64,000 nucleotides of DNA, taken from contig NC_134524.1 of NCBI RefSeq assembly GCF_027942865.1, positions 20,513,536 through 20,577,535 of the forward strand, given 5' to 3'. Made by a program: the position numbers and the translations under genes. How positions within the stretch are numbered: the first letter of the stretch is position 1; every line of letters starts with the position of its first letter. This document shows, piece by piece, positions 694 through 63,975 of the stretch. Source of the DNA: Odontesthes bonariensis. Lineage: Eukaryota > Chordata > Actinopteri > Atheriniformes > Atherinopsidae. The notes under the pieces are model-generated. The model worked only from the letters and a program-made list of their open reading frames with translations, searched no databases and was not told the origin of the DNA.

Positions 694-816
694 AATCAGG
701 CCTCAGACGATCTGAACTACGCCGCTCTAAATTTCCAGGCCAAAGCAAAGAGAAGCCGCCGGCCTGCATCAGAGAGGCAGGTGGAGCCACATGTTGTGTA
801 TGCTGCCACCAGATAG
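694..816 (+). CDS. Gene A: last coding exon of an inhibitory-type Ig receptor (partial)
   Basis: Only the final exon lies in the window. It begins after a pyrimidine-rich acceptor (AG at 692-693) and ends at a TAG at 814-816. It encodes a 40-residue cytoplasmic end with the ITIM DDLNYAALNF (L-x-Y-x-x-L), a basic stretch KAKRSRRP and the family terminus EPHVVYAATR. The same exon design ends every other receptor in the window, so this is the 3' end of a plus-strand member whose signal, V and membrane exons lie upstream. ITIMs recruit SH2 phosphatases in known receptors; that role here is inferred. A 72-bp tandem duplication (772-843 and 844-915) covers the last 14 codons and the stop. A poly(A) signal AATAAA lies at 992-997. 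Confidence 0.8.
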   Translation, partial: NQASDDLNYAALNFQAKAKRSRRPASERQVEPHVVYAATR

Positions 817-915
817 AGTCAGGAAGCAGCTGGAACTGCAGCTGAGAGGCAGGTGGAGCCAGATGTTGTGTATGCTGCCACCAGATAGAGTCAGGAAGCA
901 GCTGGAACTGCAGCT
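772..915 (+). repeat. 72-bp tandem duplication across the stop codon of gene A
   Basis: Two units, 772-843 and 844-915, differ at one base (CCACATG versus CCAGATG). The unit is 24 codons long and contains the sequence for VEPHVVYAATR plus the stop. Because the first copy keeps its stop, the second lies in the 3' UTR. Confidence 0.95.
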
Positions 916-997
916 CAGAGAGGAACTCAGACTTTATCGCGTTCGCCTGCTGATGTATTTCTGTGTCTGTTTGAAAGAGTCCTCAGCAAAAAATAAA

Positions 998-1638
998 CTG
1001 AATGTTCCCGTATTCAGAGTCTTAGTATCTTGTTCATCCTTTTGTTTTGGTCTCTGCTGCTGCCAAAGCCTGGGCCTACTTTTCAGTCTTTCTCATGAAG
1101 AGAGTCAAGTGGTCTGCTGTGGGAGGTGTGAGATACACATGAGTGTCTAACAGGAAGAAACAGCACAGTGTGGTCTGAGCTCAGCTGAGGTGAAAATCAC
1201 GAGGGCTATGAAGTCAAAGCTCTTTATGAAACTATGCAATAAAACTGCCTCCTTAAAGTTTGTATCAGTCACATATGTCACTGTTAAATCCCTCCCCCCC
1301 GTCATAACCACACACAACCCACTTTATCTTCACACTCAAACTTATTTTTCTATATTTAATCATTGACACGATGCATTCCTTACAATAACACCAAGAGCTA
1401 CAAGTGAACTGAGCTGGAATAAGTGGTATTCAGTGGAAAAAAAGGGCATTAACCAACAAGCATGGCTGCTGATAAAGAGTGCTGAGGCACTGTGGAGAGC
1501 TGTGGTCAAATGATGGCATGTTAACTTTACACTGTGTCAATGTGAAAGGGAAATTAATATAGCAGTTAATACAGAACCACTAAAGTCAGTGAGAGTCCTC
1601 CTCTGGGAACGATGAATGCCTTTACAGAATCCATACAA
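998..1638. other. 3' flank of gene A, no gene
   Basis: This stretch contains a short module near 1150 (CAGGAAGAAACAGCACAGTG) also seen after gene B near 9429 and, weaker, near 28610 and 59300. I see no coding exon. Confidence 0.5.
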
Positions 1639-1643
1639 CAGCT

Positions 1644-4600
1644 TGTGGTATTTATGTTGCTTTTATTTTCAGAATCATCAGAACTAGCATTCCACAGCCT
1701 CACATCCAGTTAGCGCTCATACTGAGCAATATGACGTAACCACGTAAGCAGTATCTGCAAGCCTATACTGGCGTGATCCGAACATTACATCCTTCTTTGG
1801 TTTTTTTTTTTTAAACTTGAACTCGAAGTTATCTGTTACATCCACTTCTGGTTACTTTGAATAATCAATAACTAAACATCCACTTGGTCAGTAAACAACA
1901 ATAAACACTATGAAGTACACAATTAGATTGCTTCAGTGTGATAACTCAAGTAAGTGCTTTCTTAAATGTCATTTCAAATACAAACCATAGAATCACTTTT
2001 TTAAACACTTTCAGATTCAGAACAGAAAAACTTGTCTAAAGATAAAGTCTCTTTGAACCAAGCACTCTTTTCAATTCCTATCTACCATGCGTTCAGCTGT
2101 GACCATAGAGCCCTGGACGGTGGTCACTGTACGGCTTGAGATTGCAAGCTGTTGTAAGTTTATTGTGCCTGGGTTGAGAGCACAACACCATGTCACCAGG
2201 TTGGAGAGGGTAAGGTGCAGCGTGACGGCGAGTGTCCGAGTACACCTTCATTTTGGCTTTGGCCTTGCGGTCTCTCCTGCGGAGATCCTCGTCCGGTTCG
2301 ATAGGTGTGCTCACTGAAGGCATCTTTGTGTGTATCCTGCGTTTGAGCAGCAACTCAGCGGGTGATGTTGTTGTTGTGCTATGTGGCGTTGCACGGTACT
2401 CACTCAGGAATGTGTAGAGGTGCTGTTTCCAGGGATGTTTTCCATGTGAGCAACACGGAGACACTTTCCAAGTGTTCTCATGAACCTCTCTGCAGTGGCG
2501 TTTGCCTGGGGCCATGGTGGTGTGATCTTTCGATGGTGAAACCCCACGTAGGCCGCAAACTTGCTGAACTGCTCACCGTTGAAAGGGGGGCCGTTGTCTG
2601 TTTTCACCGTTCTGGGGATGCCAAGCATCGAGAAGATCTTGTCCATGACTGGGATGACAGAGTTTGCAGAGGTGGAGTGCATGACCTCCACTAAAGGGTA
2701 CCGGGAGTACTCATCTACGATGACTAACAAGTGTTCACCTGTCGGCAGTGGGCCGTAGAAGTCTGCACTGATGTCTTGCCAGACTGTGTCAGGGAGGTCT
2801 GACATCCGCAGAGGTTCGTTGCGTGTTTCTGGTGTGGTGGCTTGACATGCTAAACAGTTTCTTACCGTCGCCTCAGCTCGTCGGTCGATGTTTGGAAACC
2901 ACACCTTCTCTCTCAGGAGTGCCTTTGTTTTTTCGTGATTCCCTGATGTGCCTCGTGTGTGAGCTGGAGTACCCTGTGCTCAAGTGAGGAGGGATCCAAT
3001 CCTGGAGCCCTTTAGTATGATGTCATTTTCATGTGACACTGTGAGCTTGCTTTTCACATGTTCATATTGTCTCAGCACAGTGTTCTTTGTGACTGTGTGC
3101 AATGTATTGTTGCGTATGAGAGCACTGACCTTTTGTAGTGTTTCATCTTTGAGTGTCTCACACTTGATTTCATCCAGAGTCATTGCTTTTGGTGTGTTGT
3201 TCTGCATGATGAAGTTTCTGTATTCTACCTTGAGGTTGTATGGCTGAAGCCGAAGTCCCCATCGCTCGATGCGGGCGGGTGGCTTGGACCTCGGGTTGTT
3301 CCAGATGAGCTCGACTGGCTTGTGATCTGTCACCATTGTGAACTCTTTGCCGTAGATGTAGAGATGAAAGTGTTCACAGCTCCATATGATTGCGAGTGCT
3401 TCACGCTCTGTTTGTGAGTAGCGCCTCTCGACATCGCTGAGCGCTCGGCTTGCATATGCGATGATGTGTTTCTTTTCTTTGTCTTTTTGTAGCAGTATTG
3501 CCCCTTGTCCTACTGGACTAGCGTCGACGATGAGCTCTGTTTCCCTGTTCGGGTCGAAGTATGCTATCGTGGTCTCGCTGGTGAGACCCTCTCTCAGCGT
3601 GCTCAGCGCTGCGTCCTGTTCCACACCCCACTACCAGGGAGTGTTGTTCCTTGTGAGCTTTCTCAGCGGCTCTGTGACTGTAGCGAAGTTGGGGATGAAC
3701 CGTGAGCAGTAGTTCGCCATCCCTAGGAGACTTCTTACCTCTGCTGCGTCCTTGGGCTTGTCGGCTTGGCGTATGCTGTCAACCTCTTTTGGATCGAGTT
3801 TCAGTAGCTCAGCTTCCACTTTCTCACGTACATGGAGAGGAACTCTGCGATGTGGCTGGCAGGTTGCATGTATGTCTGGGTTGATATGTAGCGTGACTTG
3901 AAAGTCCTTGAGCTTACCAATGCCATCAAACAGCTCGGGGTGGCTGTTCACAAGCTCGTCTGCCACTGTGAGGCTCATTGGGGGAGGGCTGATAGAGTGT
4001 ACAATTTTGATCAACCCCAATTCATCAGCTGTCTGGTGGCTGAGTAGGGAGCAGCCATCACCTTTGATCACGTAGAAGGTCCCATCTGTTTTGTTCTTGT
4101 TCTGTGCCTCCACACTGCCTGTGAACTTCCCTAGGATGGGCAGCGTGTCTTTGGATCCATAGGCTAGTATCCTGAGATCTGTGTGCAGGAGGCGGGGCTG
4201 GAGACTCAGATTATTATGTCTTTTCACTGATGATGTTTACTGCAGCGCCAGAGTCGATCAGAGCTGGCACTGTGTCTCCATTCAGCTTGATTTTAGTCAG
4301 TGGCTGCTTAATGTCTCTATTGCTTTTAACAGTGAACGCATAGCATTCATCACTGCTTGAAGAGAACTCACGCTGAGCTATTTCACTTTGTGTTTCTAGC
4401 TGGTTGACTTGTTTTCTGCAGCCTTTCTTGTATGTCCGTGTCTCAGTTTTCTGTTCTGTGTGTTGTGGTTTTGACCTATACTGTCTTGCAAAGTGGTTTT
4501 GCTTCCCACATGCTTTACACTGTTTGCCTCTTGCAGGGCATTCATTTTTGTGTGGCCCCCGCAGTTTCTGCACTGTGCGTTGCAGCCGCCTACTGGACGT

Positions 4601-5501
4601 TTTTGGTACGCCTTCTTCTGGGGTTGCCTATGCACTTGATTCACTGCAGCAGTGAGATTGGAACCCTTTTCTATTCCCTTTGATTGGAGTTCAGACAGTT
4701 CAAGAGTCCTGCCGTATTCAAGGAGTTCTTTTAATGTCTTGTTTGCCTCCCTCAAGCCGTATTTGCGCACCCTGGAGGACGTGCAGCTTTGTATGATCTG
4801 TGACTTAATTTCATTGTCCACATCACCAAATTTGCAGTATTTTGCTAGCATGTGAAGTCTGGTATTATAAACATCCAGATTCTCACCAGGCAGTTGTGCA
4901 GCTTTCCTGAAGACGTAAACCTCGTATTGGACGTTCTTTTTAGGCGAGAAGTATCCGTTGAGTTTTGTTTTCCCGTCTCCATACTTGTCTCCGTCTGCCG
5001 CCACTGTGTCGTATATGTCGTGCACTCTTTCGCCAGCTAGATGCAACAGGGGGGCTTTCAATCTTGAATCCCCGGTTATGTTCACAGCTGTGGTGTTGTT
5101 CTCGAATCGCTGAAGCCACTTGTTCCATCACGGTCCGATAGAGCTGGGTTCACTCTTCGTATCAAACGGTGGTACAGACGGGCCGTGTGATAGCATCATG
5201 TTGACTCTCTGGCTGCTAACTGACTAGCACACTTACTTTAGCTAGCACTGGCTTGTTAATCTCTTTCGCTCCGAACTTTCTTCCGCACGCAATATTCCGC
5301 TCTCCCGGGAACCGTCGGTGTAGTCGGTCTTATTTTTTTGATCCTCGTCGCCAGTGATGTATTTATGTTGCTTTTATTTTCAGAATCATCAGAACTAGCA
5401 TTCCACAGCCTCACATCCAGTTCGCGCTCATACTGACGCAATATGACGTAACCACGTAAGCAGTACCTGCAAGCCTTTACTGGCGTGATCTGAACATTAC
5501 A
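1644..5501 (-). mobile_element. Ty3/gypsy LTR retrotransposon fossil
   Basis: Minus-strand element with short LTRs at 1644-1789 (146 bp) and 5355-5501 (147 bp), both TG...CA in element orientation, and a 5-bp target duplication CAGCT at 1639-1643 and 5502-5506. A purine tract abuts the left LTR. A likely primer site (TGGCGACGAGGATC) follows the right LTR. Parts in order on the minus strand: Gag with a CCHC knuckle (about 5130-4390), protease with the DSGAAVN motif (about 4330-4210), reverse transcriptase region (about 4210-3640), RNase H (about 3620-3000), DDE integrase (about 2910-2400) and a downstream tail to about 2095. It is broken, with about half a dozen interruptions. The LTRs differ at about 4% of sites, which suggests a fairly recent insertion. 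Confidence 0.9.
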
Positions 5502-5506
5502 CAGCT

Positions 5507-7235
5507 GTGAGGGGATTTTAGTATTCCTGACTGAAGGTTTGGACCCAGAAAGGCAGAAAAACCACAGAGATGATTTAAAAGATTTATTTACAATACTTAC
5601 AAGCAATGAGTTGTTAATTGTGAGTGTCCTTATGAGTCCAGGTTCCATGGGAAACAGTGCTTAGGTAGAACAGGTCGATGGCCTTCCGGGTGGCAGGTAC
5701 AGCGGGAGCCTGTGGTAATGTGAGTGGGCAGGCAGGTGAGTTCTTCCAGAAAAGGGTCCAAATGTGGACACCAATGGAACGATGGATCCAAGCAGTTATG
5801 TAGCCTGGCAGGAAGCTAGAGGATTTCAATGGGATCGGTGGAGCCAAATTGTCAGGTGACTTTTTCAGGGAACTCGTGAATACCAGGGTGGATGGAGGAA
5901 CCAGGTGAGTCTTTAAGAAAGTTTGTGCATTCAACGTGGCAGAGTGTTATGGCATCTGGAGATAATTCCTTGAGCAGGTAGAGATGAAGCAGATGGCTGG
6001 TTCTTTCTGAGGAGAACATGGAGAACGTAAGGTTAGGATTTAACTTAGACTAGGTCAGAGAAAAAGATCAGAAGAGAAGAGAGAATAAACCGACATTTAC
6101 CAGAGAGGGAAACCAATCGATCTGGCGATGAGTGGAGTTCCAACCAGGACAGATAAGCAGCTGCAGTGATGAGATGATGATGACCTGCTGTGCTCAGAGA
6201 ACCTGCTGGAGAACAGAGGAAGACCACACCCAAACAAGGCTGGAAATGTATATTTGGTTAACTACACATACGCATGTTTATCATGGCTACCTCATGTATC
6301 CTGCTTTCATTTGGTGCGTTGGTCGCGCTTGTCCTCAGAAATGAATGTTATGTGTACACACGCTGTAATATGTAGGTGAGCTGTAGGGGGTGTTAAAGGC
6401 TTGTGTTTCATGTTAAGATGTTTTTCACAATCAATTTCTCGACCCATGCTTGGTTTAAGGGCCTCACATTCCATTTGCGATACCACCATTATCACTTTTT
6501 CTGTTGTGATCTGAGGATCAACATCATGTTAACCTCTTCTATTGACGCCATGTTTCCTGTTTTATCAGAGTGCTTCTGCTCACATCCTGTAAATCCGGCA
6601 GCAGCTTCCAGTCCGGGTGATCAGGTGCACCCCCTTGTGGAACCCTCTGGTACTCAGGCCAGTATGTGAGCAGTTAAACTGTGAACGGAGATGGTTGCTT
6701 ACGTGATTGCGAGGAAAAACAGGAAGTATAACTTAAGCCTGGCACTGGCACTGACTTTATGACATTTAGTCCTCTGTCAGATCAACCAACCCTTTCTAAC
6801 GTTGACATTTCTCAGGTTGGGTGCTGTTAAATAGCTGCAGTTCATAGAATAGAATAATAAATAAATAAATAAATATCACACAATATCACAATATCAGTGA
6901 TGATGAGTGATAATATGACGTATTTCCTCTAACGTTTCGTTTTGTGATAAAAATGAAAGTGAACACAGTGGATGAAAAAACCCTTCATGCTTCAACTTGT
7001 TCACACAGGCTGATAGATGTGGAGATCAGAAACAGTTGGAAGACAACTGAGGTACATTGTCACCAGCTTTAAAAACTGTTAGTTTTTCCAGTCTTTAGGT
7101 TGAAAGACATCATTTGTTCTAAGGTTCATATAATGCAGGACTATTAGTCTCCAACCACCACCTGAGAACTCTTTCATCTGTACGTCACTGTGCTTTACAA
7201 CATGAAGAAGAAAAAACACCCCGCCCCTACGGACC
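5507..7235. other. Intergenic, no gene recognised
   Basis: The stretch 5511-6040 (mini-repeats of the form ATTTATTTACAATACTT, then G-rich sequence) looks like part of a dispersed repeat but I cannot define its ends. A short AATA microsatellite lies near 6848-6875. No exon was found. Confidence 0.4.
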
Positions 7236-7237
7236 TC

Positions 7238-7245
7238 TTTATAAG
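7238..7245 (+). promoter_or_regulatory. TATA box of gene B
   Basis: TTTATAAG sits about 45 nt before the ATG of gene B. A GC-box-like CCCCGCCCC lies at about 7219 and a CRE-like ACGTCA at about 7260. Genes D to J lack a comparable strong TATA at this place. Confidence 0.5.
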
Positions 7246-7288
7246 AGCTGAGAGGATCACACGTCACAGTGACACGGTTAGACACACG

Positions 7289-9235
7289 ATGAGGATCTTT
7301 ATCCTGATAACAGCTTTGTTTCTCTGCAGCCTCAGTAAGTACTGCCACCTGTAGTCACAGGAGCCGCTGAATGTTCAGTGCGTGATGTTCTCTCTGCTGT
7401 TTGTTTCAGGCTGGATCTGTGGGTCTCACACTGTGGAGGTCCAGTCCGGTGAAGACGTCACTCTGCTGTGCTCCAACATTTCCACATCTCAGACCCAGAC
7501 AGACTGGTTCAGAGTGGTCAACGGAACCGAACCCAGCTGTATCGCCTCTACGTTTGGCGCTCACGGTGAAGCTTCATTCTGTGATGGATTTCAAGGTGGA
7601 AAATTTGAGATGAGCTCCAACATCACCACTGTCTTTCTGAAAATCAAACGAGTGGATTTCTCTGACTCCGGGCTGTATTTCTGTGGATTCTACATGATGA
7701 GACACATAGTTCTTGTCAGTGCAGCAGAGTTAATCGTTCCAGGTAAGATTGGGGTCATTTGTGAAATATTGACTTTGGTTTTTCCTTGTTATATAGAAAA
7801 ATAATCATCAGATTTATGATGATTTATCATCACAAACCAATTTTTCTCGTCATGTGAATTTTAAACCTCAAAGTTATCATCACAGAAACATGAAAACAGC
7901 CCAAAGGCAAACAGGGCATTCATATTAATCAAATTAGATCACACCAGTGTTTTTATTTGCAGGTGACGATGAATCTGATGAAGAGGCACATTTGAACCCT
8001 GAAAGTAAGGTTCCTCCTTCTCTGAAGATTTATCTCATTCACAGGTCATGATGAATCTGAAGATGAAATTTTTACTCAGAATAAAATTAAAGCTCTTCTA
8101 GATACTTTTAGAATTGTGCAGGTTTTTACAACCATCAGTAACTGTAACTTTGAAATGAACAGCGTCTTCATCTCTTGCAGAAGATGGAGAGACAAATGTT
8201 CTGACTCTAACTTTGGGCAGTCTGACGGTTTTCTTAATGACGGCTGTTGTTGGTTTGGTTGTTAAAATCGGACACCTTCACACAGGTACAGCTGACATGT
8301 GGTCTGTTGCACGACCTCAGATGTGCTGCAACAACTTTAGACAAAAACACAAACAGATGATTCTTTGTTTAATGAACGTCAATTGATCAGACTTAATGTG
8401 TTCATTTAGAAGCGAAGGAAGAACTGAACCCCGACAGAAGCAAGGTGAGACATCTTTATCAAAACTACCATGAATTTTAATCCCGTGTGCTGTGTTTCTA
8501 CACAGCTAAGTAAAAGGTTTTTCTGTATTGCACCATGTGTAACTCAGCTGTGACCGTTTCATCCAGTGAGGGAGGCCAACTCAGTCTCACGGCAAAACCT
8601 GAAATAGTCACAGAAATTTGAACTGATATTTCATTGTGCTGCACACAAACACTAGAAAAGCCTCCGTGGAGTAACATCGTGTCACCGTATTTTGTTAAAT
8701 AGTCACGTTTTGGCAGTTGTGTCACATTTTATAGGCAAACAAGTTCATGTTCAGAGGCTGAATATAAAGGAGGAGTCAAGATCAAGTTCCATCTTAACCA
8801 CAAACCAAGACTGCAGTCCTTGTGCTTTCATTCGCTGTTTCATCAGTGTTTCATACATTGTTTCAACAGTGTTTCATATATTCCAACCTATTTGGCTCAG
8901 ATCTGAACTTCCTAACAGTCCGGGGAAGCTGCCATGTTGCTCTTTGACAGAGATGGGGAGGATGATCAGATGTTGTCAAAAGTGAAAACAACCAGCAGCA
9001 ACTTTTCCCCGCATTAGATCTTCCTGAACAGAGATGGGACATGTACAGACTCTGTGCTGGTTTCCCTTTCTGATTGTGAATGATTCATTTTCAGACTCCA
9101 GGCTCCTCTGACATGAACTCTGCGACACAGAGGTTCCTGAAACAAACTAAAGGAAGCAGGAGACCTGCAGACGAGAGAGCCCTGGAGACTCATGTTATCT
9201 ATGCTTTCAGCAGAAAGACGTGCGATTCTGTGTGA
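7289..9235 (+). CDS. Gene B: single-V-domain membrane receptor, divergent member
   Basis: Six coding exons: 7289-7334, 7410-7742, 7963-8004, 8181-8285, 8410-8444 and 9095-9235. All have GT-AG introns and phases 1,1,1,1,0, giving 233 residues. The signal peptide starts MRIFILITALFLCSLS. The V domain (about 20-125) has C36 and C107 in the DSGLYFCG motif, W48, and an extra pair C59/C73. An acidic stalk (DDESDEEAH) precedes an uncharged membrane helix at about 147-167. The tail departs from the family: the ITIM tyrosine position reads DMNSATQRF, so it is lost. Only Y223 (THVIYAFS) remains, followed by an extension KTCDSV in place of the usual terminal Arg-stop. A poly(A) signal lies at 9259-9264. 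It is probably surface-expressed on leukocytes like related fish receptors; ligand and true family name are unknown. Confidence 0.85.
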
Positions 9236-12725: not shown

Positions 12726-15457
12726 ATGAAAACCTTCCCCTTGAAGACAGCTTTGCTGCTCTGCGGCTTTAGTAAGTTCTGGTTCTGAATTCCTCTCAAC
12801 TAAATTTACAACTTTGTTAACTCCAGTAAAATGTCCACTTTTAAGGCTTTGTTCAAAGCTATTTTTGTTTGATAACTTTTAAGGCTTTGTTCAAAGCTAT
12901 TTTTGTTTGATATAAGGCAAATAAAGACTGCTTCTGTCTCAGGTTGGTCTCTGCCTCGGACCTTGAAGATTCAGCCTGGTGAAGATGTCACACTGCAGTG
13001 CTCCAAGGTCTCCAAATACGATTCTATAACATTCTGGTTCAGACTGATCAACAGAACCAAGGTCAACTGTATCTCTGTCATGTTTCCTGGTGATGACAAA
13101 GCTAAATACTGTGAGGGATTTGAAAGTGGATCATTTGAAATGAGCTCCAACATCTCCACTGTGTTTCTCAAAATCAAAGAGGTGGATTTTTCTGAATCTG
13201 GACTATATTTTTGTGGATTTTACATAAATGCACGTCTGAATTTCAGTGTAATACATTTACATGTGAAAGGTAAGTTTAAGATATCATGTGTATTTCTTTA
13301 TGTTTTTGCTTATTTCTATTAACAATATAAATGTACTACATTTCATAATTCCCCTGATACGAACGGATTGTTCTCCCTCTCACTGAAAGCCACTAAAAGC
13401 CACCATGAGTTTGACGATGACATCGACGGCGAGTGTCAAAGTAAGACGTCTTTATTCAAACCATTCGTTAGCCACATCTTAATCCACCATTCAGTCCGGA
13501 ATAATGCTTTTTGTTGCAGAAAAATCTTTTGAAAGCACAAATCTGCTGAGTCTGATTCTGGGTGGTCTGACTGTTTTCCTCATAGCAGTCATCGTTGGTC
13601 TGGTTGTTCAAATCAAGAAGCTTCAAAAAGGTACTTCTTGAAAGCTACTGAATCCATCCCAACCTAAGAGTAGGGATGATGCTGACTGAGAAATGGCTAC
13701 TTTGATGAATTAATGTCCATGTCCATTCTGCAGAGACCTCCACTTGGATCAGCAGGCTACTGCCCACAAAGCACAAACCTAAAAACTCGGGCTGGGCGAG
13801 TTAACTCGTTATTATCGCGTTAACTTGTTAATTATTTAACGCCAATAAATATTTTATCGTGCATTAACGCAGGTTTTATTCTTTCCAAAGTCTGTTGGTT
13901 TCTGCTGCGGAACCACCAAACATGGGGAAGGGTACGGAACTTTTACTCGGCCATTTTCATTTTAAAGTTGGACATCACTGCTACAGGTGCCCCTCGGTCT
14001 CTGTGTGAAGCTCACGGAGCTAACCGGCGCTACTTCCTGCTTTACTTGTTTCAACATAAAAGCATGTATTTCAAAATAAATTTTTAAAAAAACTCCTGCA
14101 TATACAGCCAAGTTGAATTGTCTTATCAGTGTAGTCGTTCCAGTCTAAAATATCACTTAAAGGCAAAACACACAATTGATACAGCAAGTCATTCAACGAA
14201 ACAGACAGTGGAGCGAGGCTTCTACATAAAAACTGCATAAAAATGCTGATGTTAAAAGTGTGTTTGCACAACAAATGTTATGGCACTTTCATTCATATGG
14301 CAGTACATTTAAAATAAAGCTAAATGCTAAAAGCTATACACTACCTTTGAATTAATTTTTGGATTTTGCGTACAAATGCGATTAATTGTGATTAATCAGG
14401 GAAATCATGTGATTAATTAGAGTAAAAATTGTAATTGTTGCCCAGCCCTAATAAAAACTTAACTAATTACAGCCAAGGATGCTATCTGGGGATAACTTGA
14501 TTACTTTTGAAGATGGCTTATTAGAAAGTGAGAGAAACTTGTCACCTTCTACTCAAATAAGAAGCCACAGGCCTCCACAAAAAGAATATGGGGGACTTTA
14601 AAAACATCAGAAACTGAAATATCCCAACTTTACTTCCAACAAAGAATGGCTGAAGATTAAATATAAATGCTTGCTTCATAATGGTCCTCTTTATTGTCTT
14701 TCCTACTTTGATCAGATTATCCTTGTCTACAGCTTTGGCTGCAATCATTTTTAAAACTTTACTGAGTTTCCTCCATCGCCACAGAAGATCTTTTGTCCTG
14801 TTTTCAAATTCCGAGTTTAACTTCTATGAAGAACTATGATCCATTGTTTCCATATCCCCCTTTGATTGTGATTAAAACTATATCCATAACTGCATCACTA
14901 CTTATCTGAATGAAAAAAAATATCCCCCAAAGAATATCCAATCCTGCCCAAATCCAACTCAATTCGCCTGGTTGGGTTAGTGGGTGTGGCATCTAAAGTA
15001 ACATGACAATAACATAGTAACATGATAGCATGTAACACAAGGAAGACATTGCCTAATGTGAAGGAATTTTCATAGGTTTGAAAGTACGTGTGCCAGTCTA
15101 CAAAATAGAAATGAAGAGTAAATAATTAACCTCTGTTTGTTAATAATAGGAGCCTCTTTAGAATATGCAACTAGAATGTTTTCTTTGACCTCATGTGCTC
15201 TGTCTCTCTGTCCCTAAGCCGATGATAAACAAGATCCACAAGAGAATGGGGTGAATATTGTTCTAAACATTTTTCTTCAATCATTTAGTAGAAAGTCTTT
15301 TGTAATCAAAATATTTTTAGATGTCTTACTGTAACTGCTTTAATGTTATTTACAGAGCCCTGGCTCTGATGACGTGGACTATGCTACGGTGACGTTTAAG
15401 CAAACAGGAAGAAGAAGACAGCCGGAGTCAAACGTTGTGTATGCTGCCACCAGATAA
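12726..15457 (+). CDS. Gene C: single-V-domain receptor with ITIM
   Basis: Six exons: 12726-12771, 12943-13269, 13390-13440, 13520-13630, 15219-15250 and 15356-15457. Phases are 1,1,1,1,0, giving 222 residues. The signal peptide starts [16 protein letters not shown]. In the V domain C35 pairs with C106 (ESGLYFCG), W47 follows, and an extra pair C58/C72 matches gene B. N-glycosylation sequons are NRT, NIS and NFS. The stalk is [12 protein letters not shown]. The membrane helix lies at about 150-170 with no internal charge. The tail has the [14 protein letters not shown] (Y198) and a second tyrosine Y218 in NVVYAATR. Intron 1 holds a 38-bp tandem duplication (12837-12874, 12875-12912) and intron 4 a hAT-type element. 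A poly(A) signal lies at 15580-15585. Probable inhibitory receptor, inferred from the ITIM. Confidence 0.87.
13798..14451. mobile_element. Non-autonomous hAT element in intron 4 of gene C
   Basis: The ends read CGGGCTGGGCGAG and GTTGCCCAGCCCTAA (inverted GGGCTGGGC). The flanks are the 8-bp duplication TAAAAACT at 13790-13797 and 14452-14459. No transposase is present. The interior carries ATTAATTG/GATTAATCA words typical of this fish MITE. Confidence 0.85.
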
Positions 15458-23383: not shown

Positions 23384-24435
23384 ATGATGAGCTTCACCTT
23401 GATGCTGGCTTTGCTCTGCACCTTCAGTAAGTACACCAACATGTTTTTATTTGTACGATTTATTTTGTCCATACTGTGATCCACCAGAAATTCTCTTATA
23501 ACATGAGTTGAACTCATTGTTAGTTTCTTGTTGAATTTTGACTTCATGAATGCTTCATCTGTTGGTTTGCTTCAGGTTGGATCTCAGCGTCAGTGTCGGA
23601 GTTTCACACTGTGGAGGTCCAGCCTGGTGAAGAAGTCACACTGCTGTGCTCCAACTTTAGCAGTTTTCCTGCTCACATCGTTTGGTTCAAACTGGCCAAC
23701 GGACCCAACGTCAGCCGCATCTCATCTATGTTCAGTTCTGAGTCCAATACTTCACTTTTTGATGGATTTCCAAACAGTAAATTTAAGATGACATCCAACA
23801 CCACAAACCTTTTTCTGAATATCAAACGAGTGGATTTCTCCGACTCTGGGCTTTATTTCTGTGGAAATAACAAAGAAGGACTCTCAGTCATTTTTAGTGC
23901 AACATATTTACAGGTTCAAGGTAAGATTAATGTTATTAATATTTCAGTCAGTTTCAAATGATTCCAAACCAATGCTGCTGTGTACAAATTGTAGCTGTCT
24001 CAACAAATCCGCTGATTGTAATCCTGGGCGGTGGAACCATTTTCCTCGTAATAATCATCATCTGCCTGGTCGTCAGAATCAGGACATTTCATACAGGCAA
24101 GTTTTCATTTTAGTTGGACATTTAGAACATTTACAAACGCTGAGCTGTGAAACGAATAACCGACCAGATTAACTGTTGTTGTCATTCAGTTCAAAGTGAC
24201 AAACAGAATCCACAACACAGTGAGGTAATCACCCCCTGATTTTATTATATCTTGTTTTTTTAATAATCATATATTAGGTGGTTTACTTAGTGACTGTAAC
24301 TACTTTCATTTACAGATGCCCTCTGAGGCCCTGAACTATGCAGCAGTGGGTTTCCGTCCCAAAGCAGAAAGGAGCAGAAGGCCGGTGCACGACAGAGAGC
24401 TGGAGCCACATGTGGTGTACGCTGCCACAAGATAG
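23384..24435 (+). CDS. Gene D: single-V-domain ITIM receptor with shortened stalk
   Basis: Five exons: 23384-23426, 23576-23920, 23995-24096, 24190-24224 and 24316-24435, with phases 1,1,1,0 and 214 residues. The signal peptide starts MMSFTLMLALLCTFS. The V domain has C39, W51 and C110 (DSGLYFCG). The residues that form the second cysteine pair in genes B and C are R62 and F76 here. The membrane exon lacks the DVFN(G/W)S start seen in E, F, H, I and J. It can still splice in frame from an AG at 23993-23994, giving AVSTNPL before the helix. Its donor is GC (24097-24098), not GT. The tail has ITIM ALNYAAV (Y183) and HVVYAATR (Y210). AATAAA signals lie at 24535 and 24541. Closest relative in the window is gene G. 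Confidence 0.87.
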
Positions 24436-30248: not shown

Positions 30249-31283
30249 CTATCTTGTGGCAGCGTACACCACATGTGGCTCCAGCTCTCTGTCTTGCACC
30301 GGCCTTCTGCTCCTTTCTGCTTTGGGACGGAAACCCACTGCTGCATAGTTCAGGGCCTCAGAGGGCATCTGTAAATGAAAGTAGTTACAGTCACTAAGTA
30401 AACAACCTAATATATGATTATTAAAAAAACAAGATATAATTAAATCAGGGGGTGATTACCTCACTGTGTTGTGGATTCTGTTTGTCACTTTGAGCTGAAT
30501 GACAACAACAGTTAATCTGGTTGGTTATTCGTTTCACAGCTCAGCGTTTGTAAATGTTCTAAATCTCCAACTAAAATGAAAACTTACTTGTATGAAATGT
30601 CCTGATTCTGACAACCAGGCAGATGATGAGTATTACAAGGAAAATGGTTCCGCCGCCCAGGATTATAATCAGCTGCTTTGTTGACCCATTAAACACATCT
30701 ACAGGAGAGACAGCTACAATTTGTACACAGCAGCATTGGTTTGGAATCATTTGACAGTGACTGAAATATTAATAACATCAATCTTACCGTCAACCTGTAA
30801 ATATGTTGCACTGAAAATGACTGAGAGTTCATCTTTGTAACGTCCACAGAAATACAGTCCAGAGTCGGAGAAATCCACTTGTTTTATATTCAGAAAAAGG
30901 TTTGTGGTGTTGGATGTCATCTTAAATTTACTGTTTGGAAATCCATCACAAAATGAAGCATTCGAGTCAGAACTGAACATAGATGAGATGCGGCTGGCGT
31001 TGGGTCCGTTGGCCAGTTTGAACCAAATGATGTGAGTAGGAAGGCTGCTAAAGTTGGAGCACAGCAGTGTGACTTCTTCACCAGGCTGGACCTCCACAGT
31101 GTGAAACTCCGACACTGACGCAGAGATCCAACCTGAAGCAAACAGGTTAAACATTTAGATGATTCAAATTCAACAAGAACGAAGCAATAACGATACAAAA
31201 AACATAAATCGTACAAATAAAAACATGTTGGTGTACTTACTGAAGGTGCAGAGCAAAGCCAGCATCAAGGTGAAGCTCATCAT
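30249..31283 (-). CDS. Gene E: single-V-domain ITIM receptor
   Basis: Five exons on the minus strand: 31241-31283, 30788-31132, 30588-30698, 30460-30494 and 30249-30368, giving 217 residues. Signal peptide MMSFTLMLALLCTFS. V domain about 23-130 with C39, W51 and C110 (DSGLYFCG), R62 in place of a cysteine, unpaired C76, and sequons at N41, N59, N72 and N89. The stalk reads DVFNGSTKQ. The membrane helix (about 139-159) is GGGTIFLVILIICLVV with no internal charge, so no adaptor pairing is suggested. The tail has ITIM ALNYAAV (Y186) and HVVYAATR (Y213). The membrane-exon donor is GT. A transposon splits its 3' UTR. Confidence 0.9.
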
Positions 31284-34960: not shown

Positions 34961-35107
34961 AGCCCATGGGGCCCCGGCCCATGGACTCACCTCTTCAAGC
35001 CCCTCCCTCCCACCCCCAGACATTGGGGATATCTGGGATCCATCCCTTAAAGGGGGGGCTCCCCCCCCGCTGGATGTCCAGCCGACCGTCGGACGGTCCC
35101 CGGCTAC

Positions 35108-44576: not shown

Positions 44577-44612
44577 CTATCTTGTGGCAGCGTACACCAC
44601 ATGTGGCTCCAG

Positions 44613-46195
44613 AGGTCCGTTTCACGTAGCAGGTTTAGTGAAAACTCTGAGTAGGTTAACCCTGAAATGAGGGAAACCCTGAGTTTTCCGTTTCACAAAG
44701 GGAGGTAACTCAACCCCGAGAAAGAGGGGTAACTCTAGCCTGTTTCACAAAGAGAGGTAACTTAACCTCTCGGTCAGTTACCGGAGTAACAGACTCTCTG
44801 AACCTAACCTGGTCGGGACCAGGTTTTACTCAAGAAACCTCGAGTTTCTCTCTGTCTCCGCCCTCTTTCAGCCACACACGCCATTTGATTTCCTCATTCA
44901 TTTAGTCAGCAGAGCGAGTTCTTCTCTATAAGTCCATTAGGCACAGTAGGAGGGGACTTTTTTCACGAACATGTCCTTTTGACAACGATCCCGTGGATGA
45001 AGGTGCAGCATTATTGCGCAGAGAAATAAATATTCGTCGGAAATGGTTATCAGACCGCGCATAGATTTTTGCATTTACAGACAATTATATTTTTGAGCGG
45101 CACCATCAGAATGTGTTGGGACAAAAGAAAAAAAAGACATAAAAGACAAATAAATATTTGTATGAATAGGCTTAAAAAAGACATATATAGGCCTATTATA
45201 TTTTATAAAGGCACTCGTGTCTTGGGGGTGGATTCCCTCAGCCACTGCTCCCGTTAGAGGTGGTGGGCACCACCCGTTTTAAGGGCATCTGCCTTCTTTC
45301 TGTTGGCTCAGTAGAAGTCTGTGTTTGTTTAAATAGGCTTAATTATTTAACAGAACATGATTTAGATGATGACTCTAAATTGTCCTTAGGAGTGACTGTG
45401 AGTGTGTATGGTTGTTTGTCTCGTTTGTCTCTATGTGGCCCTGTGATGGACTGGCGGCCTGTCCAGGGTGTACCCCGCCTCTTGCCCATTGACCGCTGGG
45501 ATAGGCTCCAGCCCCCCCGCGACCCGACTGACGGATTCAGCGGTATGGATGGATGGATGGTACAGATGAGAAGACATAGTTTATGTGTGTGAAAACAGCA
45601 TTATGTTGGGAATAAAATAACTGCACAGTCAAATAGCCACTTAATATTTATTTTACAGTGTAAAACATGATCAAAATGAGGTACCTCCATGCCGAGGTCT
45701 CACCTGTTTGAACAATGTTTTTATATTTTATCTTAAACTGCTGCCAAGTGCGCTTCTCCCCCGCGAGATTGCACCTAAATTAAATAAATGAATGGGTTAC
45801 CATTCAAGCAGTTTCCCCTGTAATATTATTGTGATTGCAAAGGACTACATTTAAACTTACACTTTTGCTGCTGCAACGGTGTTGCACTTATTTTTAAAAA
45901 CATATTGAAACTCGCCTTATGAGCGAAGATTTCCAATTCGAGGTTGGTGAAAAACGTAGCCCCTCCTCTTCGCCGTTGCCATGGTGACTCGTCGAATCGG
46001 GGCTCCATTGATGCTGGCTTTTTAAAGTTGTGGTGCACGCGCTAAACTCAAGGTGAACTTACTCAGAGTTGATTAACCTCACTCAAATCAACGTTTCTGG
46101 AACCGAAAATTCAGAGTTTTCTATCTTAGAGTAGATCAACTCAGAGATCAGGAATAGACTCAGAGTTGGTTGAACCTGCTTTGTGAAACGGACCC
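44613..46195. mobile_element. PIF/Harbinger-type element inside the last exon of gene F
   Basis: Ends AGGTCCGTTTCACGTAGCAG and CTGCTTTGTGAAACGGACCC, with a 3-bp duplication CAG at 44610-44612 and 46196-46198. Intact last exons of E and G-J give the empty site. A SINE tail is nested at 45350-45565. No full transposase frame is visible. Confidence 0.88.
45350..45565 (+). mobile_element. SINE 3' part nested in the Harbinger element
   Basis: Has the tail words GTCCAGGGTGTACCCCGCCT and GGGATAGGCTCCAGCCCC, and ends in GGATGGATGG. The tRNA-like head is missing. Confidence 0.7.
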
Positions 46196-47188
46196 CAGCT
46201 CTCTGTCTTGCACCGGCCTTCTGCTCCTTTCTGCTTCGGGACGGAAACCCACTGCTGCATAGTTCAGGGCCTCAGAGGGCATCTGTAAATGAAAGTAGTT
46301 ACAGTCACTACGTAAACAATATATGATTATTAAAAAAACAAGATATAATAAAATCAGGGGGTGATTACCTCACTGTGTTGTGGATTCTGTTTGTCACTTT
46401 GAGCTGAATGACAACAACAGTTAATCTGGTTGGTTATTCGTTTCACAGCTCAGCGTTTGTAAATGTTCTAAATCTCCAACTAAAATGAAAACTTGCCTGT
46501 ATGAAATGTCCTGATTCTGACAACCAGGCAGATGATGATTATTACAAGGAAAATGGTTCCACCGCCCAGGATTATGATCAGCTGCTTTGTTGACCAATTA
46601 AACACATCTACAGGAGAGACAGCTACGATTTGTACACAGCAGCATTGGTTTGGAATCATTTGACAACGACTGAAGTATTAATAACATCAATCTTACCTTG
46701 AACCTGTAAATGTGTTGCACTGAAAATGACTGAGAATCCTTGTTATTTCCACAGAAATACAGTCCAGAGTCGGAGAAATCCACTTGTTTGATATTCAGAA
46801 AAAGGTTTGTGGTGTTGGATGTCATCTTAAATTTACTGTTTGGATATCCATCAAAAAGTGAAGCATTGGACTCAGAACTGAACATAGATGAGATGCGGCT
46901 GACGTTGGGTCCGTTGGCCAATTTGAACCAAATGATGTGTGTAGGAAGGCTGGTATAGTTGGAGCACAGCAGTGTGACTTCTTCACCAGGCTGGACCTCC
47001 ACAGTGTAAAACTCCGACACTGACGCAGAGATCCAACCTGAAACAAACAGGTTAAACATTTAGATGGTTCAAATTCAACCAGAACGAAGCAATAACGGTA
47101 CAAAAAACATAAATCGTACAAATAAAAACATGTTGGTGTACTTACTGAAGGTGCAGAGCAAAGCCAGCATCAAGGTGAAGCTCATCAT

Positions 47189-48448: not shown

Positions 48449-49456
48449 CTATCTTGTGGCAGCGTACACCACATGTGTCTCCAGCTCTCTGTCTTGCACC
48501 GGCCTTCTGCTCCTTTCTGCTTTGGGACGGAAACCCACTGCTGCATAGTTCAGGGCCTCAGAGGGCATCTGTAAATGTGACAGCCACTAAGTAAACAACC
48601 TAATATATGATTATTAAAAAAACAAGATCTAATTAAATCAGGGGGTGATTACCTCACTGTGTTGTGGATTCTGTTTGTCACTTTGAGCTGAATGACAACA
48701 ACAGTTAATCTGGTCGGTTATTTGTTTCACAGCTCAGCGTTTGTAAATGTTCTAAATCTCCAACTAAAATGAAAACTTGCCTGTATGAAATGTCCTGATT
48801 CTGACAACCAGGCAGATGATGATTATTACAAGGAAAATGGTTCCACCGCCCAGGATTATGATCAGCTGCTTTGTTGAGACAGCTACGATTTGTACACAGC
48901 AGCATTGGTTTGGAATCAATTGACAGTGACTGAAATATTAATTACATCAATCTTACCTTGAACCTGTAAATGTGTTGCACTGAAAATGACTGAGAGTCCA
49001 TCTTTGTAACGTCCACAGAAATACAGTCCAGAGTCGGAGAAATCCACTTGTTTGATATTCAGAAAAAGGTTTGTGGTGTTGGATGTCATCTTAAATTTAC
49101 TCTTTGGAAATCCATCACAAAGTGAAGCATTGGACTCAGAACTGTACATATATGAGATGCGGCTGGCATTGGGTCTGTTCGCCAGTTTGAACCAAAAGAT
49201 GTGAGTAATAATGCTGCTAAAGTTGGAGCACAGCAGTGTGACTTCTGCACCAGGCTGGACCTCCACAGTGTCAAACTCCGACACTGACGCAGAGATCCAA
49301 CCTGAAACAAACCAACAGATGAAGCATTCATGAAGTCAAAATTCAACCAGAACGAAGTAATCACGATACAGAAAAAATAAATCGTACAAATAAAAACATG
49401 TTGGTGTACTTACTGAAGCTGCAGAGCAAAGCCAGCATCAAGGTGAAGCTCATCAT
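48449..49456 (-). CDS. Gene G: single-V-domain ITIM receptor with shortened stalk
   Basis: Exons 49414-49456, 48957-49301, 48781-48882, 48653-48687 and 48449-48568, giving 214 residues. V domain with C39, W51, C110 and an unpaired C76; R62 replaces the partner. The membrane exon has lost its usual start and the usual acceptor, as in gene D. It can splice in frame from an AG at 48883-48884 (minus strand) to read AVSTKQL before the helix. Its donor is GC. The tail ends ELETHVVYAATR with ITIM ALNYAAV. Chain ends and flank show it is the sister of gene D. Confidence 0.88.
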
Positions 49457-54890: not shown

Positions 54891-54892
54891 CA

Positions 54893-55444: not shown

Positions 55445-56483
55445 CTATCTTGTGGCAGCGTACACCACATGTGGCTCCAGCTCTCTGTCTTGCACCGGCC
55501 TTCTGCTCCTTTCTGCTTTGGGACGGAAACCCACTGCTGCATAGTTCAGGGCCTCAGAGGGCATCTGTAAATGAAAGTAGTTACAGTCACTAAGTAAACC
55601 ACCTAATATATGATTATTAAAAAAACAAGATATAATTAAATCAGGGGGTGATTACCTCACTGTATTGTGGATTCTGTTTGTCACTTTGAGCTGAATGACA
55701 ACAACAGTTAATCTGGTCGGTTATTCGTTTCACAGCTCAGCGTTTGTAAATGTTCTAAATCTCCAACAAAAATGAAAACTTACCTGTATGAAATGTCCTG
55801 ATTCTGACAACCAGGCAGATGATGATTATTACAAGGAAAACGGTTCCACCGCCCAGGATTATGATCAGCTGCTTTGTTGACCAATTAAACACATCTACAG
55901 GAGAGACAGCTACAATTTGTACACAGCAGCATTGGTTTGGAATCATTTGACAGTGACTGAAATATTAATTACATCAATCTTACCTCGAACCTGTAAATGT
56001 GTTGCACTGAAAATGATTGAGAATCCATCTGTCTTACATCCACAGAAATACAGTCCAGAGTCGGAGAAATCCACTTGTTTGATATTCAGAAAAAGGTTTG
56101 TGGTGTTGGATGTCATCTTAAATTTACTCTTTGGAAATCCATCACAAAGTGAAGCATTGGACTCAGAACTGTACATATATGAGATGCGGCTGGCATTGGG
56201 TCTGTTCGCCAGTTTGAACCAAAAGATGTGAATAATAATGCTGCTAAAGTTGGAGCACAGCAGTGTGACTTCTTCACCAGGCTGGACCTCCACAGTGTGA
56301 AACTCCGACACTGACGCAGAGATCCAACCTGAAACAAACCAACAGATGAAGCATTCATGAATTCAAAATTCAACCAGAACGAAGTAATCACGATACAGAA
56401 AAAATAAATCGTACCAATAAAAACATGTTGGTGTACTTACTGAAGCTGCAGAGCAAAGCCAGCATCAAGGTGAAGCTCATCAT
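55445..56483 (-). CDS. Gene H: single-V-domain ITIM receptor
   Basis: Exons 56441-56483, 55984-56328, 55784-55894, 55656-55690 and 55445-55564, giving 217 residues. V domain: C39, W51, C110, R62, and C76 in SLCDGF. The segment after YFCG reads CKTDGFS, which adds a cysteine right after the canonical one. Stalk DVFNWSTKQ, membrane helix GGGTVFLVIIIICLVV, GT donor. Tail with ITIM ALNYAAV and HVVYAATR. The V domain shares NRPNASRISYMYSSES with genes G and J. Confidence 0.9.
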
Positions 56484-58255: not shown

Positions 58256-58267
58256 TTAAACTCCATT

Positions 58268-59045: not shown

Positions 59046-59089
59046 ACTTTCTCTAATTCATGACCTGGAATATTTTTAGTGTCATAAAA

Positions 59090-59943: not shown

Positions 59944-61702
59944 CTATCTTGTGGCAGCGTACACCACATGTGTCTCCAGCTCTCTGTCTTGCACCGGCCT
60001 TCTGCTCCTTTCTGCTTTGGGACGGAAACCCACTGCTGCATAGTTCAGGGCCTCAGAGGGCATCTGTAAATGAAAGTAGTTACAGTCACTAAGTAAACAA
60101 CCTAATATATGATTATTAAAAAAATTAGATATAATTAAAGGGATAGTTCGCCTCTTTTTACATGAAGCTGTATGACATCCCATATTAGCAATATCATTTA
60201 TGAACATTGACTTACCCCTGCTGCGTCCTGTGAGCCGAGTTCCAGTCTCGTTTTGGCGTTGACAAAGGTAGTCCGGCTAGTTTGCTAGGGTCCCCAAAAT
60301 AAAGCGTTTTGCTTCTCAAAACAATATGCATTCAAAAGAGTAATACATTTGCATCACAAAATCGTTCAACAGAAAAAGTCAGACCTCACAATCGCTTGGT
60401 GCTATTTTCTCTCCCTTCGTATCACTGCGTGCTGTGTAAACCGTGCAGACCGAAGTGCAGACCGAGCAGTAAACACCGTAACAGGTGCGGCTATCGCTAG
60501 GTGGCTGAACAAATTGATATGAAGGGAGGCAAAAATAGCGCCAAGCGATTGTGAGGTCTGTCTTTTTCTGGCTAACGATTTTGTGATGCAAATGTATTAC
60601 TCTTTTGAACGCATATTGTTTTGAGAAGCAAGACGCTTCATTTTCAGGACCCTAGCAAACTAGCCGGACTACCTTCGTCAACGCCAAAACAAGTCTGGAA
60701 CTCGGCTCACAGGACGCAGCGGGGGGTAAGTCAATGTTCATAAATGATATTGCTAATATGGGATGTCATACAGCTTCATGTCAAAAGAGGCGAACTATCC
60801 CTTTAAATCAGGGGGTGATTACCTCACTGTGTTGTGGATTCTGTTTGTCACTTTGAGCTGAATGACAACAACAGTTAATCTGGTTGGTTATTCGTTTCAC
60901 AGCTCAGCGTTTGTAAATGTTCTAAATCTCCAACTAAAATGAAAACTTACCTGTATGAAATGTCCTGATTCTGACAACCGGGCAGGTGATGAGTATTACA
61001 AGGAAAATGGTTCCACCGCCCAGGATTATGATCAGCGGATTTGCTGACCCATTAAACACATCTACAGGAGAAACAGCTACAATTTGTACACAGCAGCATT
61101 GGTTTGGAATCATTTGACACTGACTGATATATTAATTACATCAATCTTACCTTCAACCTGTAAATGTGTTGCACTGAAAATGACTGAGAGTTCATCTTTG
61201 TAACGTCCACAGAAATACAGTCCAGAGTCGGAGAAATCCACTTGTTTGATATTCAGAAAAAGGTTTGTGGTGTTGGATGTCATCTTAAATTTACTGTTTG
61301 GAAATCCATCACAAAGTGAAGCATTGGACTCAGAACTGAACATAGATGAGATGCGGCTGGCGTTGGGTCCGTTGGCCAGTTTGAACCAAATGATGTGACT
61401 AGGAAGGCTGCTAAAGTTGGAGCACAGCAGTGTGACTTCTTCACCAGGCTGGACCTCCACAGTGTGAAACTCCGACACTGACGCAGAGATCCAACCTGAA
61501 ACAAACCAACAGATGAAGCATTCATGAAGTCAAAATTCAACAAGAAACTAACAATGACTTCAACTCATGTTATTAGTGAACAGTTTGTATCACTTCTGTT
61601 GGATTACTACAGACAAACAGCTAGAAAGTTTTCAAATAAAAACATGTTGGTGTACTTACTGAAGGTGCAGAGCAAAGCCAGCATCAAGGTGAAGCTCATC
61701 AT
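59944..61702 (-). CDS. Gene I: single-V-domain ITIM receptor with a foldback MITE in intron 4
   Basis: Exons 61660-61702, 61151-61495, 60951-61061, 60823-60857 and 59944-60063, giving 217 residues. V domain: C39, W51, C110, R62, and unpaired C76. Stalk DVFNGSANPL. The helix contains a proline near its inner end (LITCPVVRI versus LIICLVVRI in E). GT donor. Tail ends ELETHVVYAATR with ITIM ALNYAAV. Intron 4 is lengthened by a 664-bp palindromic element. Closest to E in its V domain (KDELSVIFSAT). Confidence 0.88.
60139..60802. mobile_element. TTAA-flanked palindromic MITE (foldback)
   Basis: TTAA at 60135-60138 and 60803-60806. The arms, each near 300 bp, are inverted copies: AGGGATAGTTCGCCTCTTTT at the left faces AAAAGAGGCGAACTATCCCT at the right, and pairing continues inward past GTCCGGCTAGTTTGCTAG and CAATCGCTTGG. 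The loop is short (about 60420-60520). Confidence 0.9.
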
Positions 61703-62012
61703 TGTGCACACGACAGGACTCTGTCAGTGTGATGTTAGAAAGTGAACTGTGCTCCAGTTACTGTAGTCACTATAAGGAGGTGGGCTGTTCTTTCAGCTAT
61801 TGGACTGCTCGCACTGATCAAAAGCCTGACGATAGAAGAACATTTACAAATGAATCTCTAATGAACATCAGTTCAATCATTTATTCCCCCTTTTAAATAA
61901 AAGATAAATAAAGTGCTTCATTTACCTGATTGATTTATAGAATTGGAAACATGTTTGAATATAGCAGAAGTGTAATTAACTTTGCTACAAATCTCCATAT
62001 TGTTTGATTTTT
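61703..62012. other. 5' flank of gene I
   Basis: Conserved promoter and sequence matching 47189-47715 upstream of gene F, with an internal part shorter than there. Confidence 0.6.
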
Positions 62013-62208
62013 TTTGGGGGGGGGCTTTTTATGCCTTTAATGATAGGACAGTTGGAGAGAGACAGGAAGCAGGGGCCAGAGAGAGGGGGAATACATGCAG
62101 CAAGGGGCCATCCGGTGCAGGACTTGAACCAGGGATTGCTGCAGTGAGGACTGTAGCCTCTGTACATGGAGCGGCTGCTTAACCCACTACGCCACTGACC
62201 GCCCCCAC
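62013..62208. mobile_element. SINE insertion with 14-bp target duplication
   Basis: Flanked by ATTGTTTGATTTTT at 61999-62012 and 62209-62222; the F flank near 47716 is the empty site. Body words: GATAGGACAGTTGGAGAGAG, GACTTGAACCAGGG, and CTACGCCACTGACCGCCCCC. Confidence 0.85.
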
Positions 62209-62222
62209 ATTGTTTGATTTTT

Positions 62223-62944
62223 AACCAACTGCTGCTTGTGAAGTGAGTCTCAAGTTTATGACAAACGTTGCAAAAGTGACCACATCAGCAAGAGCAGTTT
62301 GAATCTCACCTGGCGAATGGTAATAACTGGATTAATGTTTGCCAGATCCAGAAGGCTCACAGATATGTCACAGTGGAGATGGATGGACCTTCACCTGCTG
62401 TGGTTCTGAATCTCTGTAACATCTGAAAACGTGCAGCTTTCAGCAGAGTGAATGCTTTGATATGAGGCTGCTTACGGTTCACTTTGTTAGAGGCAAGTGT
62501 TCAACACAGTGCAGTGATGTGAGCTTGTGTTAGCAGCGGGCATGTTCAGTGTGACTTGATCTGATGAGCAGTGACGCAGTTAGAGGCTTTTAAAAAACTA
62601 CCCAAACTGATATTTTCTTTCCATCTGAGACAGACTTGATGGGGCTGTGCTGTCTCTTCCTCTTAATCAACATGTGTAACTCTCTTTTTAGTCCCCTGCA
62701 GAAGACCTCAACTTTCTCTGCGCTGCCATCAGAGAGCTCACAGGCTCCTCCTCCATCAAACACCAGCCATGTTGTTATGTTCACAGATAAAGGAAGAATT
62801 TCAATGAACACAGAATTTATGATTAAACTACATTGTCTTTTTATTGGCACTGCAATTCATCCAAACACAAAAAACCCAACAATCAGATGAGTATAACAAA
62901 GGATTATTCTCTCTCTGAGCTTCTGTCAGTATGGGTGTGTGAGT
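62223..62944. other. I/J intergenic block and 3' UTR of gene J
   Basis: Matches 47720-48445. Holds the conserved 3' module and poly(A) region. No exon. Confidence 0.65.
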
Positions 62945-63975
62945 CTATCTTGTGGCAGCGTACACCACATGTGGCTCCAGCTCTCTGTCTTGCACCGGCC
63001 TTCTGCTCCTTTCTGCTTTGGGACGGAAACCCACTGCTGCATAGTTCAGGGCCTCAGAGGGCATCTGTAAATGAAAGTAGTTACAGTCACTACGTAAACA
63101 ATATATGATTATTAAAAAAACAAGATATAATAAAATCAGGGGGTGATTACCTCACTGTGTTGTGGATTCTGTTTGTCACTTTGAGCTGAATGACAACAGT
63201 TAATCTGGTCGGTTATTCGTTTCACAGCTCAGCGTGTGTAAATGTTCTAAATCTCCAACTAAAATGAAAACTTGCCTGTATGAAATGTCCTGACTCTGAC
63301 AACCAGGCAGATGATGAGTATTACAAGGAAAATGGTTCCACCGCCCAGGATTATGATCAGCGGATTTGTTGACCCATTAAACACATCTACAGGAGAGACA
63401 GCTACAATTTGTACACAGCAGCATTGGTTTGGAATCATTTGACAGTGACTGAAATATTAATGACATCAATCTTACCTTGAACCTGTAAATATGTTGCACT
63501 GAAAATGACTGAGAATCCATCTGTCTTACATCCACAGAAATACAGTCCAGAGTCGGAGAAATCCACTTGTTTGATATTCAGAAAAAGGTTTGTGGTGTTG
63601 GATGTCATCTTAAATTTACTCTTTGGAAATCCATCACAAAGTGAAGCATTGGACTCAGAACTGTACATATATGAGATGCGGCTGGCATTGGGTCTGTTCG
63701 CCAGTTTGAACCAAAAGATGTGAGTAGGAAGGCTGCTAAAGTTGGAGCACAGCAGTGTGACTTCTTCACCAGGCTGGACCTCCACAGTGTGAAACTCCGA
63801 CACTGACGCAGAGATCCAACCTGAAACAAACCAACAGATGAAGCATTCATGAAGTCAAAATTCAACCAGAACGAAGTAATCACGATACAGAAAACATAAA
63901 TTGTACAAATAAAAACACGTTGGTGTACTTACTGAAGCTGCAGAGCAAAGCCAGCATCAAGGTGAAGCTCATCAT
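62945..63975 (-). CDS. Gene J: single-V-domain ITIM receptor
   Basis: Exons 63933-63975, 63476-63820, 63276-63386, 63151-63185 and 62945-63064, giving 217 residues. V domain C39, W51, C110, R62, unpaired C76, plus a cysteine shortly after the canonical one (YFCGCKTDGFS), as in H. Stalk DVFNGSTNPL. Helix GGGTIFLVILIICLVV then RVR. The donor of the membrane exon is GC. Tail with ITIM ALNYAAV and HVVYAATR. Its promoter runs off the right edge of the window. Confidence 0.9.

Follow-up and report, generated by a model that had tools for sequence, protein, structure and literature searches.

A tandem array of genes, each predicted to encode a receptor with a single V-type immunoglobulin domain and most with an immunoreceptor tyrosine-based inhibitory motif (ITIM), occupies the stretch of Odontesthes bonariensis DNA analysed here (C24:20513536-20577535, 64,000 nt, hereafter the window), in which the genes are named A to J in plus-strand order. 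On balance, we favour the view that this array represents germline-encoded inhibitory receptors of a lineage related to NITRs but without the I domain, a variant of the known NITR kind. Its probable family follows from an adjacent V-I NITR gene with a tail like that of gene A, and since the fit to NITRs holds for location, layout, tail and solved structures but not for the J strand and the I domain, we describe the array as NITR-related and I-less and not as proven NITR.

Nine V exons were found in the window (44-100% identity; tblastn with three V queries and six-frame reading), the other tblastn matches being short and weak, and the three V domains submitted to Pfam all scored above the V-set cut-off. 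The array of tandem single-V receptor genes proposed in an earlier note on this DNA is thus real, nine window genes having one V exon each, but its description as ten-member is an effect of the window: ten genes are seen there, whereas a contig search returned at least 13 V exons in 97 kb (C24 20,493,679-20,590,951), the whole array spanning C24 20,493,553-20,591,138. At least two further V matches lie on the same contig at 5.76 and 5.85 Mb, ~15 Mb from the array, and three tail matches in that interval (C24 5.76-5.85 Mb) are of the same type as the array tails; the counts from the V search in this 945-Mb genome are lower bounds.

The exon models of D, E, G, H, I and J, all with splice sites, have intron phases 1,1,1,0 and comprise a leader of 43 nt, a V exon of 345 nt, a transmembrane (TM) exon of 111 nt, a C1 exon of 35 nt and a C2 exon of 120 nt. 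By hand count from the sequence, the usual TM-exon acceptor is deleted in D and G, where an upstream AG preserves the frame and yields a TM exon of 102 nt. B and C show phases 1,1,1,1,0 with a stalk exon of 42 nt (B) or 51 nt (C, carrying a cysteine), and no stalk exon is present in the models of D to J. The phases are therefore as the earlier note gave them, but the extra stalk exon, which it assigned to B and C, also occurs in gene A and in two genes upstream of A. Donors are GT, except in D, F, G and J, where the one following the TM exon is GC. The neutral membrane helix likewise attributed to the array was borne out, the helix being uncharged in the models read.

The V domain of gene C ends in ESGLYFCG instead of the DSGLYFCG described for every member; the accompanying statement that a J motif is lacking holds for FGXG, yet in the open genes D, E, G, H, I and J a J-like G strand is retained as F-S-A-T-x-L-x-V, shorter by one residue. 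Equivalents of C23 and W41 are present in the eight aligned V domains, and a CX13C pair occurs in six of the nine array V sequences listed (two upstream genes, A, B, C and the 5.85-Mb relative), gene D having lost both extra cysteines. A canonical ITIM followed by a second tyrosine (VVYAATR), likewise ascribed to all members, was found in A, C, D, E, G, H, I and J, but B has lost the ITIM tyrosine and F is broken. With V at -2 and T at +3, the second motif does not qualify as a strict ITIM. Eight of the ten genes seen in the window accordingly keep an intact ITIM exon, and for seven of them (C, D, E, G, H, I and J) the window contains the whole gene, open and with an ITIM. What stands of the suggested expansion of inhibitory receptors is a tandem expansion of predicted single-V receptors, most of them with an ITIM.

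The adjacent gene contains an open reading frame at C24:20484681-20485628 (+) in which a V domain (Pfam V-set, E 9e-24) with a J-like FDEGTTVNV strand shares its exon with an I-type domain carrying seven cysteines and FGNGNKPDF; its C2 exon includes DNLHYAAVRTQRFKRPRSQRNETLNQCVYSTVRS. From its predicted protein, this neighbour is a genuine NITR gene. V and I share one exon in pufferfish NITRs and, with the exception of NITR9, in the two-domain NITRs of medaka chromosomes 18 and 21, and NITR-type genes are described as confined to bony fish (PMC2442602, partial text). In the same source the I domain, with six cysteines where present, is optional in NITRs, and the majority of I-less NITRs from medaka, zebrafish, catfish and Tetraodon are reported to cluster with one another. 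The neighbour starts ~9 kb and ends ~6.4 kb upstream of the array on the same strand, placing the array beside an NITR, yet it is the only NITR at E 1e-3 in the window and the adjacent 194 kb. The gene A tail resembles the neighbour tail, with NITR-like scores, and two NITR genes read through in the genome have the same TM/C1/C2 layout as the array. Moreover, the array genes encode type I membrane proteins with a V-type immunoglobulin ectodomain and, except for B and F, an ITIM tail on C1-C2 exons with an uncharged TM, as expected of NITRs, and the nearest single-V solved structures are catfish NITR10/11. Further NITR loci lie on C24 at 27.56 and 27.64 Mb and on C18, where all eight fetched loci have an I-type domain and a CAV(A/V)TCG(E/Q)ILFG strand. 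MEN1, linked to the main NITR cluster in zebrafish and medaka (PMC2442602, partial text), is at C24:30.45 Mb. Contig C4 carries, at 8.47-8.51 Mb (L035, L046, L047), another unnamed single-V family with the V motif WFRNCSHENQPTL; a CYAALEI tail was present in one of two fetched genes of this C4 family.

Several observations limit an assignment to NITRs. The canonical J motif (FGXG) is absent from the array V domains, whereas a J or J-like strand (FGXGTXLXV) ends V in nearly all medaka NITRs (PMC2442602, partial text). No I exon lies between V and TM in the array gene models, and the neighbour alone was matched by three NITR I-domain queries in the stretch searched. The V tree does not settle where the array belongs (p-AU 0.091 for array plus NITR, 0.285 for array plus C4), and the ITIM tail of the C4 family is similar to that of the array. 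A tree of this kind had been proposed as a check: against the NITR and C4 rows it set the array V apart but left placement with NITR undecided.

The copies differ unevenly along their length. Mean divergence among seven copies was 0.007 in the 5' flank, 0.013 in the leader, 0.055 in V, 0.046 in intron 2, 0.051 in TM, 0.025 in intron 3, 0.016 in C1, 0.033 in intron 4, 0.016 in C2 and 0.046 in the 3' flank, the mean of 0.139 for intron 1 being gappy and unreliable. The C2 value is inflated because truncated F is included; without F, a hand count gave 0.0072 (13 differences over 15 pairwise comparisons of 120 bases each). Pooled pN/pS across six intact copies was 1.15 in V and 1.16 in TM plus tail, and the three pairs among the G, H and J V domains differ at 28 non-synonymous versus 0 synonymous positions. 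As read from these sequences, the pattern fits an ITIM exon under constraint and a V that changes freely or under diversification. Conservation of the 5' flank and leader is about equal to that of the ITIM exon, however, so part of the pattern could reflect uneven recency or gene conversion.

Gene B, whose frame is open, has MNSATQ at the ITIM and keeps the second tyrosine. It is 94.2% identical to gene A over 1.27 kb of upstream sequence, leader, V and stalk, and this similarity ends at about window position 8037, within the intron that separates the stalk exon from the TM exon. Against three A-type genes, its leader, V and stalk are 95-100% identical and its TM 60-61%, whereas its C2 is 64% identical to one of them and has no match to the other two at E 0.01. 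Since the 3' exons diverge while the 5' module matches A, a V-bearing front has been joined to another back half lacking the ITIM tyrosine; on this comparison, gene B is a chimera, its predicted promoter, leader, V and stalk being of A type and its TM and tail unrelated.

Alternatively, though we consider it clearly less probable than the NITR-related assignment, the array could be a separate unnamed teleost single-V ITIM family with its own V signature and extra CX13C pair, set beside an NITR by chance or local shuffling and having only the widespread YAA(L/V) tail in common with NITRs. In the tree, the nine V domains entered from the array lie together on one side, separated from the NITR and C4 rows (84/88, not starred), and the CX13C pair in six of nine sequences, a TM unlike that of NITRs and the similar ITIM tail in the C4 family point the same way. 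Set against this are the adjoining same-strand NITR and the NITR-like scores of the gene A tail; in addition, NITR V domains fall in three places of the tree with weak support and are themselves so divergent that a missing V grouping says little. We are similarly doubtful of a more elaborate proposal, in which a distinct unnamed teleost family, not NITR and with the signature CX13C plus KFxM(S/T)SN...DSGLYFCG, would swap ectodomain and signalling modules, gene B being a natural V-tail chimera that lost the inhibitory tyrosine and kept its ligand-binding half, acting, for example, as a decoy for its inhibitory sister genes or competing with them.

A mostly decaying cluster, with recent copies produced by duplication and transposon activity and few or no expressed genes, is improbable: F is broken twice, B lacks the ITIM tyrosine, pN/pS is near 1 and transposon debris is dense, but C, D, E, G, H, I and J are open in all exons with splice sites (D and G via the upstream acceptor) and, unlike introns 2-4, the ITIM exon barely varies among copies. 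It is more unlikely still that the genes are divergent NILT or CD300/pIgR-type receptors. The NILT plan has a stalk exon, phase 1 for introns 1-4 and phase 0 for intron 5, which is the array plan in B and C (1,1,1,1,0), and zebrafish NILT1 ends in a single-ITIM exon of similar length (132 nt; PMC3022915, partial text). However, neither the CX3C, CX6C or CX7C of salmon NILT V domains (PMC3022915, partial text) nor the WCR motif of CD300 (PMC3031540, partial text) occurs in the array V domains read, in which the cysteine spacing, where present, is CX13C. An expansion of PD-1/CD28-family inhibitory receptors can hardly account for the array, even with its single V, ITIM and second tyrosine. Bony-fish PD-1 V domains are described as very divergent and without the canonical C23 and W41 that the aligned array V domains have, and the available part of the same source mentions no tandem PD-1 array (PMC11599192).

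The plan read from the sequence, namely a leader, one V-set domain, a short or no stalk, an uncharged helix, a short C1 and a last exon with a canonical ITIM and a second tyrosine, suggests a model in which these receptors probably switch immune cells off. As judged from their class, they would be displayed on the leukocyte surface, where ligand binding by V could bring them beside activating receptors; the motif predicts that Src-family kinases would phosphorylate the ITIM, recruiting SHP-type phosphatases and damping the cell. V diverges between copies with the ITIM exon kept near-invariant, and birth and death together with exon-module exchange, as in gene B, would create new ectodomain/tail pairings. 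Such an array would extend the germline inhibitory-receptor repertoire of this fish beside an NITR gene and offers a compact natural series of at least 13 copies, in which V diverges, the ITIM exon hardly changes, one copy has a swapped tail and one has died. The series could be used to study how families of inhibitory receptors acquire and lose signalling, and whether the I-less NITR-like receptors form a single lineage.

Table. Window positions of the array genes and their exons (contig coordinates are prefixed C24).
Feature	Position	Strand	Leader	V	Stalk	TM	C1	C2	ITIM or remark
Gene A, leader to C1	C24:20511688-20512793, upstream of window	+							
Gene A, last exon (C2)	694..816	+						694-816	NQASDDLNYAALNF...HVVYAATR; LNYAAL
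Gene B	7289..9235	+	7289-7334	7410-7742	7963-8004	8181-8285	8410-8444	9095-9235	
Gene B, gene A-like 5' module	6793..8037	+							94.2% identity to C24:20511196-20512458
Gene C	12726..15457	+	12726-12771	12943-13269	13390-13440	13520-13630	15219-15250	15356-15457	VDYATV
Gene D	23384..24435	+	23384-23426	23576-23920		23995-24096	24190-24224	24316-24435	LNYAAV
Gene E	30249..31283	-	31283-31241	31132-30788		30698-30588	30494-30460	30368-30249	LNYAAV
Gene F, pseudogene	44577..47188	-	47188-47146	47037-46697		46607-46497	46403-46369	46282-46195 + 44612-44577 (split)	
Gene G	48449..49456	-	49456-49414	49301-48957		48882-48781	48687-48653	48568-48449	LNYAAV
Gene H	55445..56483	-	56483-56441	56328-55984		55894-55784	55690-55656	55564-55445	LNYAAV
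Gene I	59944..61702	-	61702-61660	61495-61151		61061-60951	60857-60823	60063-59944	LNYAAV
Gene J	62945..63975	-	63975-63933	63820-63476		63386-63276	63185-63151	63064-62945	LNYAAV

Gene F, from its predicted reading frames, is a pseudogene: a 4-bp loss shifts the frame of V, and the last exon contains a 1,582-bp insert, probably a DNA transposon (window 44613-46194, minus strand; inverted ends GGTCCGTTTCAC/GTGAAACGGACC). The 5.85-Mb relative (L033, C24:5848001-5850000) may also be a pseudogene, because Y replaces the strand-F cysteine (GLYFYG) and a stop lies inside the tail match. A 0.67-kb inverted repeat (window 60135-60806, 85% identical to its own reverse complement) sits in the C1-C2 intron of gene I, and the end of the gene A last exon is tandemly repeated at 764-920 (72-bp period, 2.2 copies), giving an extra partial exon copy; further copies are found in the upstream sister at C24:20495626. 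Elsewhere in the window, a LINE-like retrotransposon with interrupted frames (39015-43942, plus strand) shows a zinc-knuckle open reading frame by eye and Exo_endo_phos_2 and RNase_H by Pfam, broken remains of a Ty3-like retroelement (2093-5127, minus strand) include integrase, RNase H and gag-like open reading frames recognised by eye, and a 504-codon open frame lying in a G+C-rich island (34576-36090) and built from 48-bp tandem repeats and their relatives is probably repeat-driven and not a gene. On both flanks of the array, all seven open reading frames picked by eye as TRIM-like before Pfam proved to be RING (some with B-box) or SPRY pieces.

The earlier note held that the array fits none of the NITR, DICP, NILT and CD300-like clusters cleanly, and indeed no tested named family matches every defining feature, but the exon plan with a stalk exon is that of NILTs and the TM/C1/C2 layout that of NITRs. 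Like the array, NITRs (I-less; catfish NITR10/11) have a germline V, an uncharged TM, C1/C2 exons (phase 1 then 0), a YAA(L/V) ITIM in most tails read, a second C-terminal tyrosine and tandem birth-and-death clusters; the array differs by its lack of an I domain and a canonical J motif and by its distinct TM, as well as by the CX13C pair of some members. NILTs resemble it in the leader/V/stalk/TM/C1/C2 plan, the intron phases and an inhibitory tail, but their CX3C, CX6C or CX7C is missing from the array V, and salmon NILTs have several ITIMs. The CD300/SITR/MDIR group includes inhibitory members, and CD300 has a single V with YxCG in strand F; unlike these receptors, the array has no WCR motif and no second disulphide, with WF(R/K) instead in the V domains read. 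The C4 family has the single V and a CYAALEI tail with a second tyrosine, but another V framework and TM and a long insertion after strand F. PD-1, for its part, also has a short exon before the tail exon. Not homologous to the array in domain type, the KIR-type receptors of mammals provide a working analogy, being clustered, fast-evolving and ITIM-bearing.
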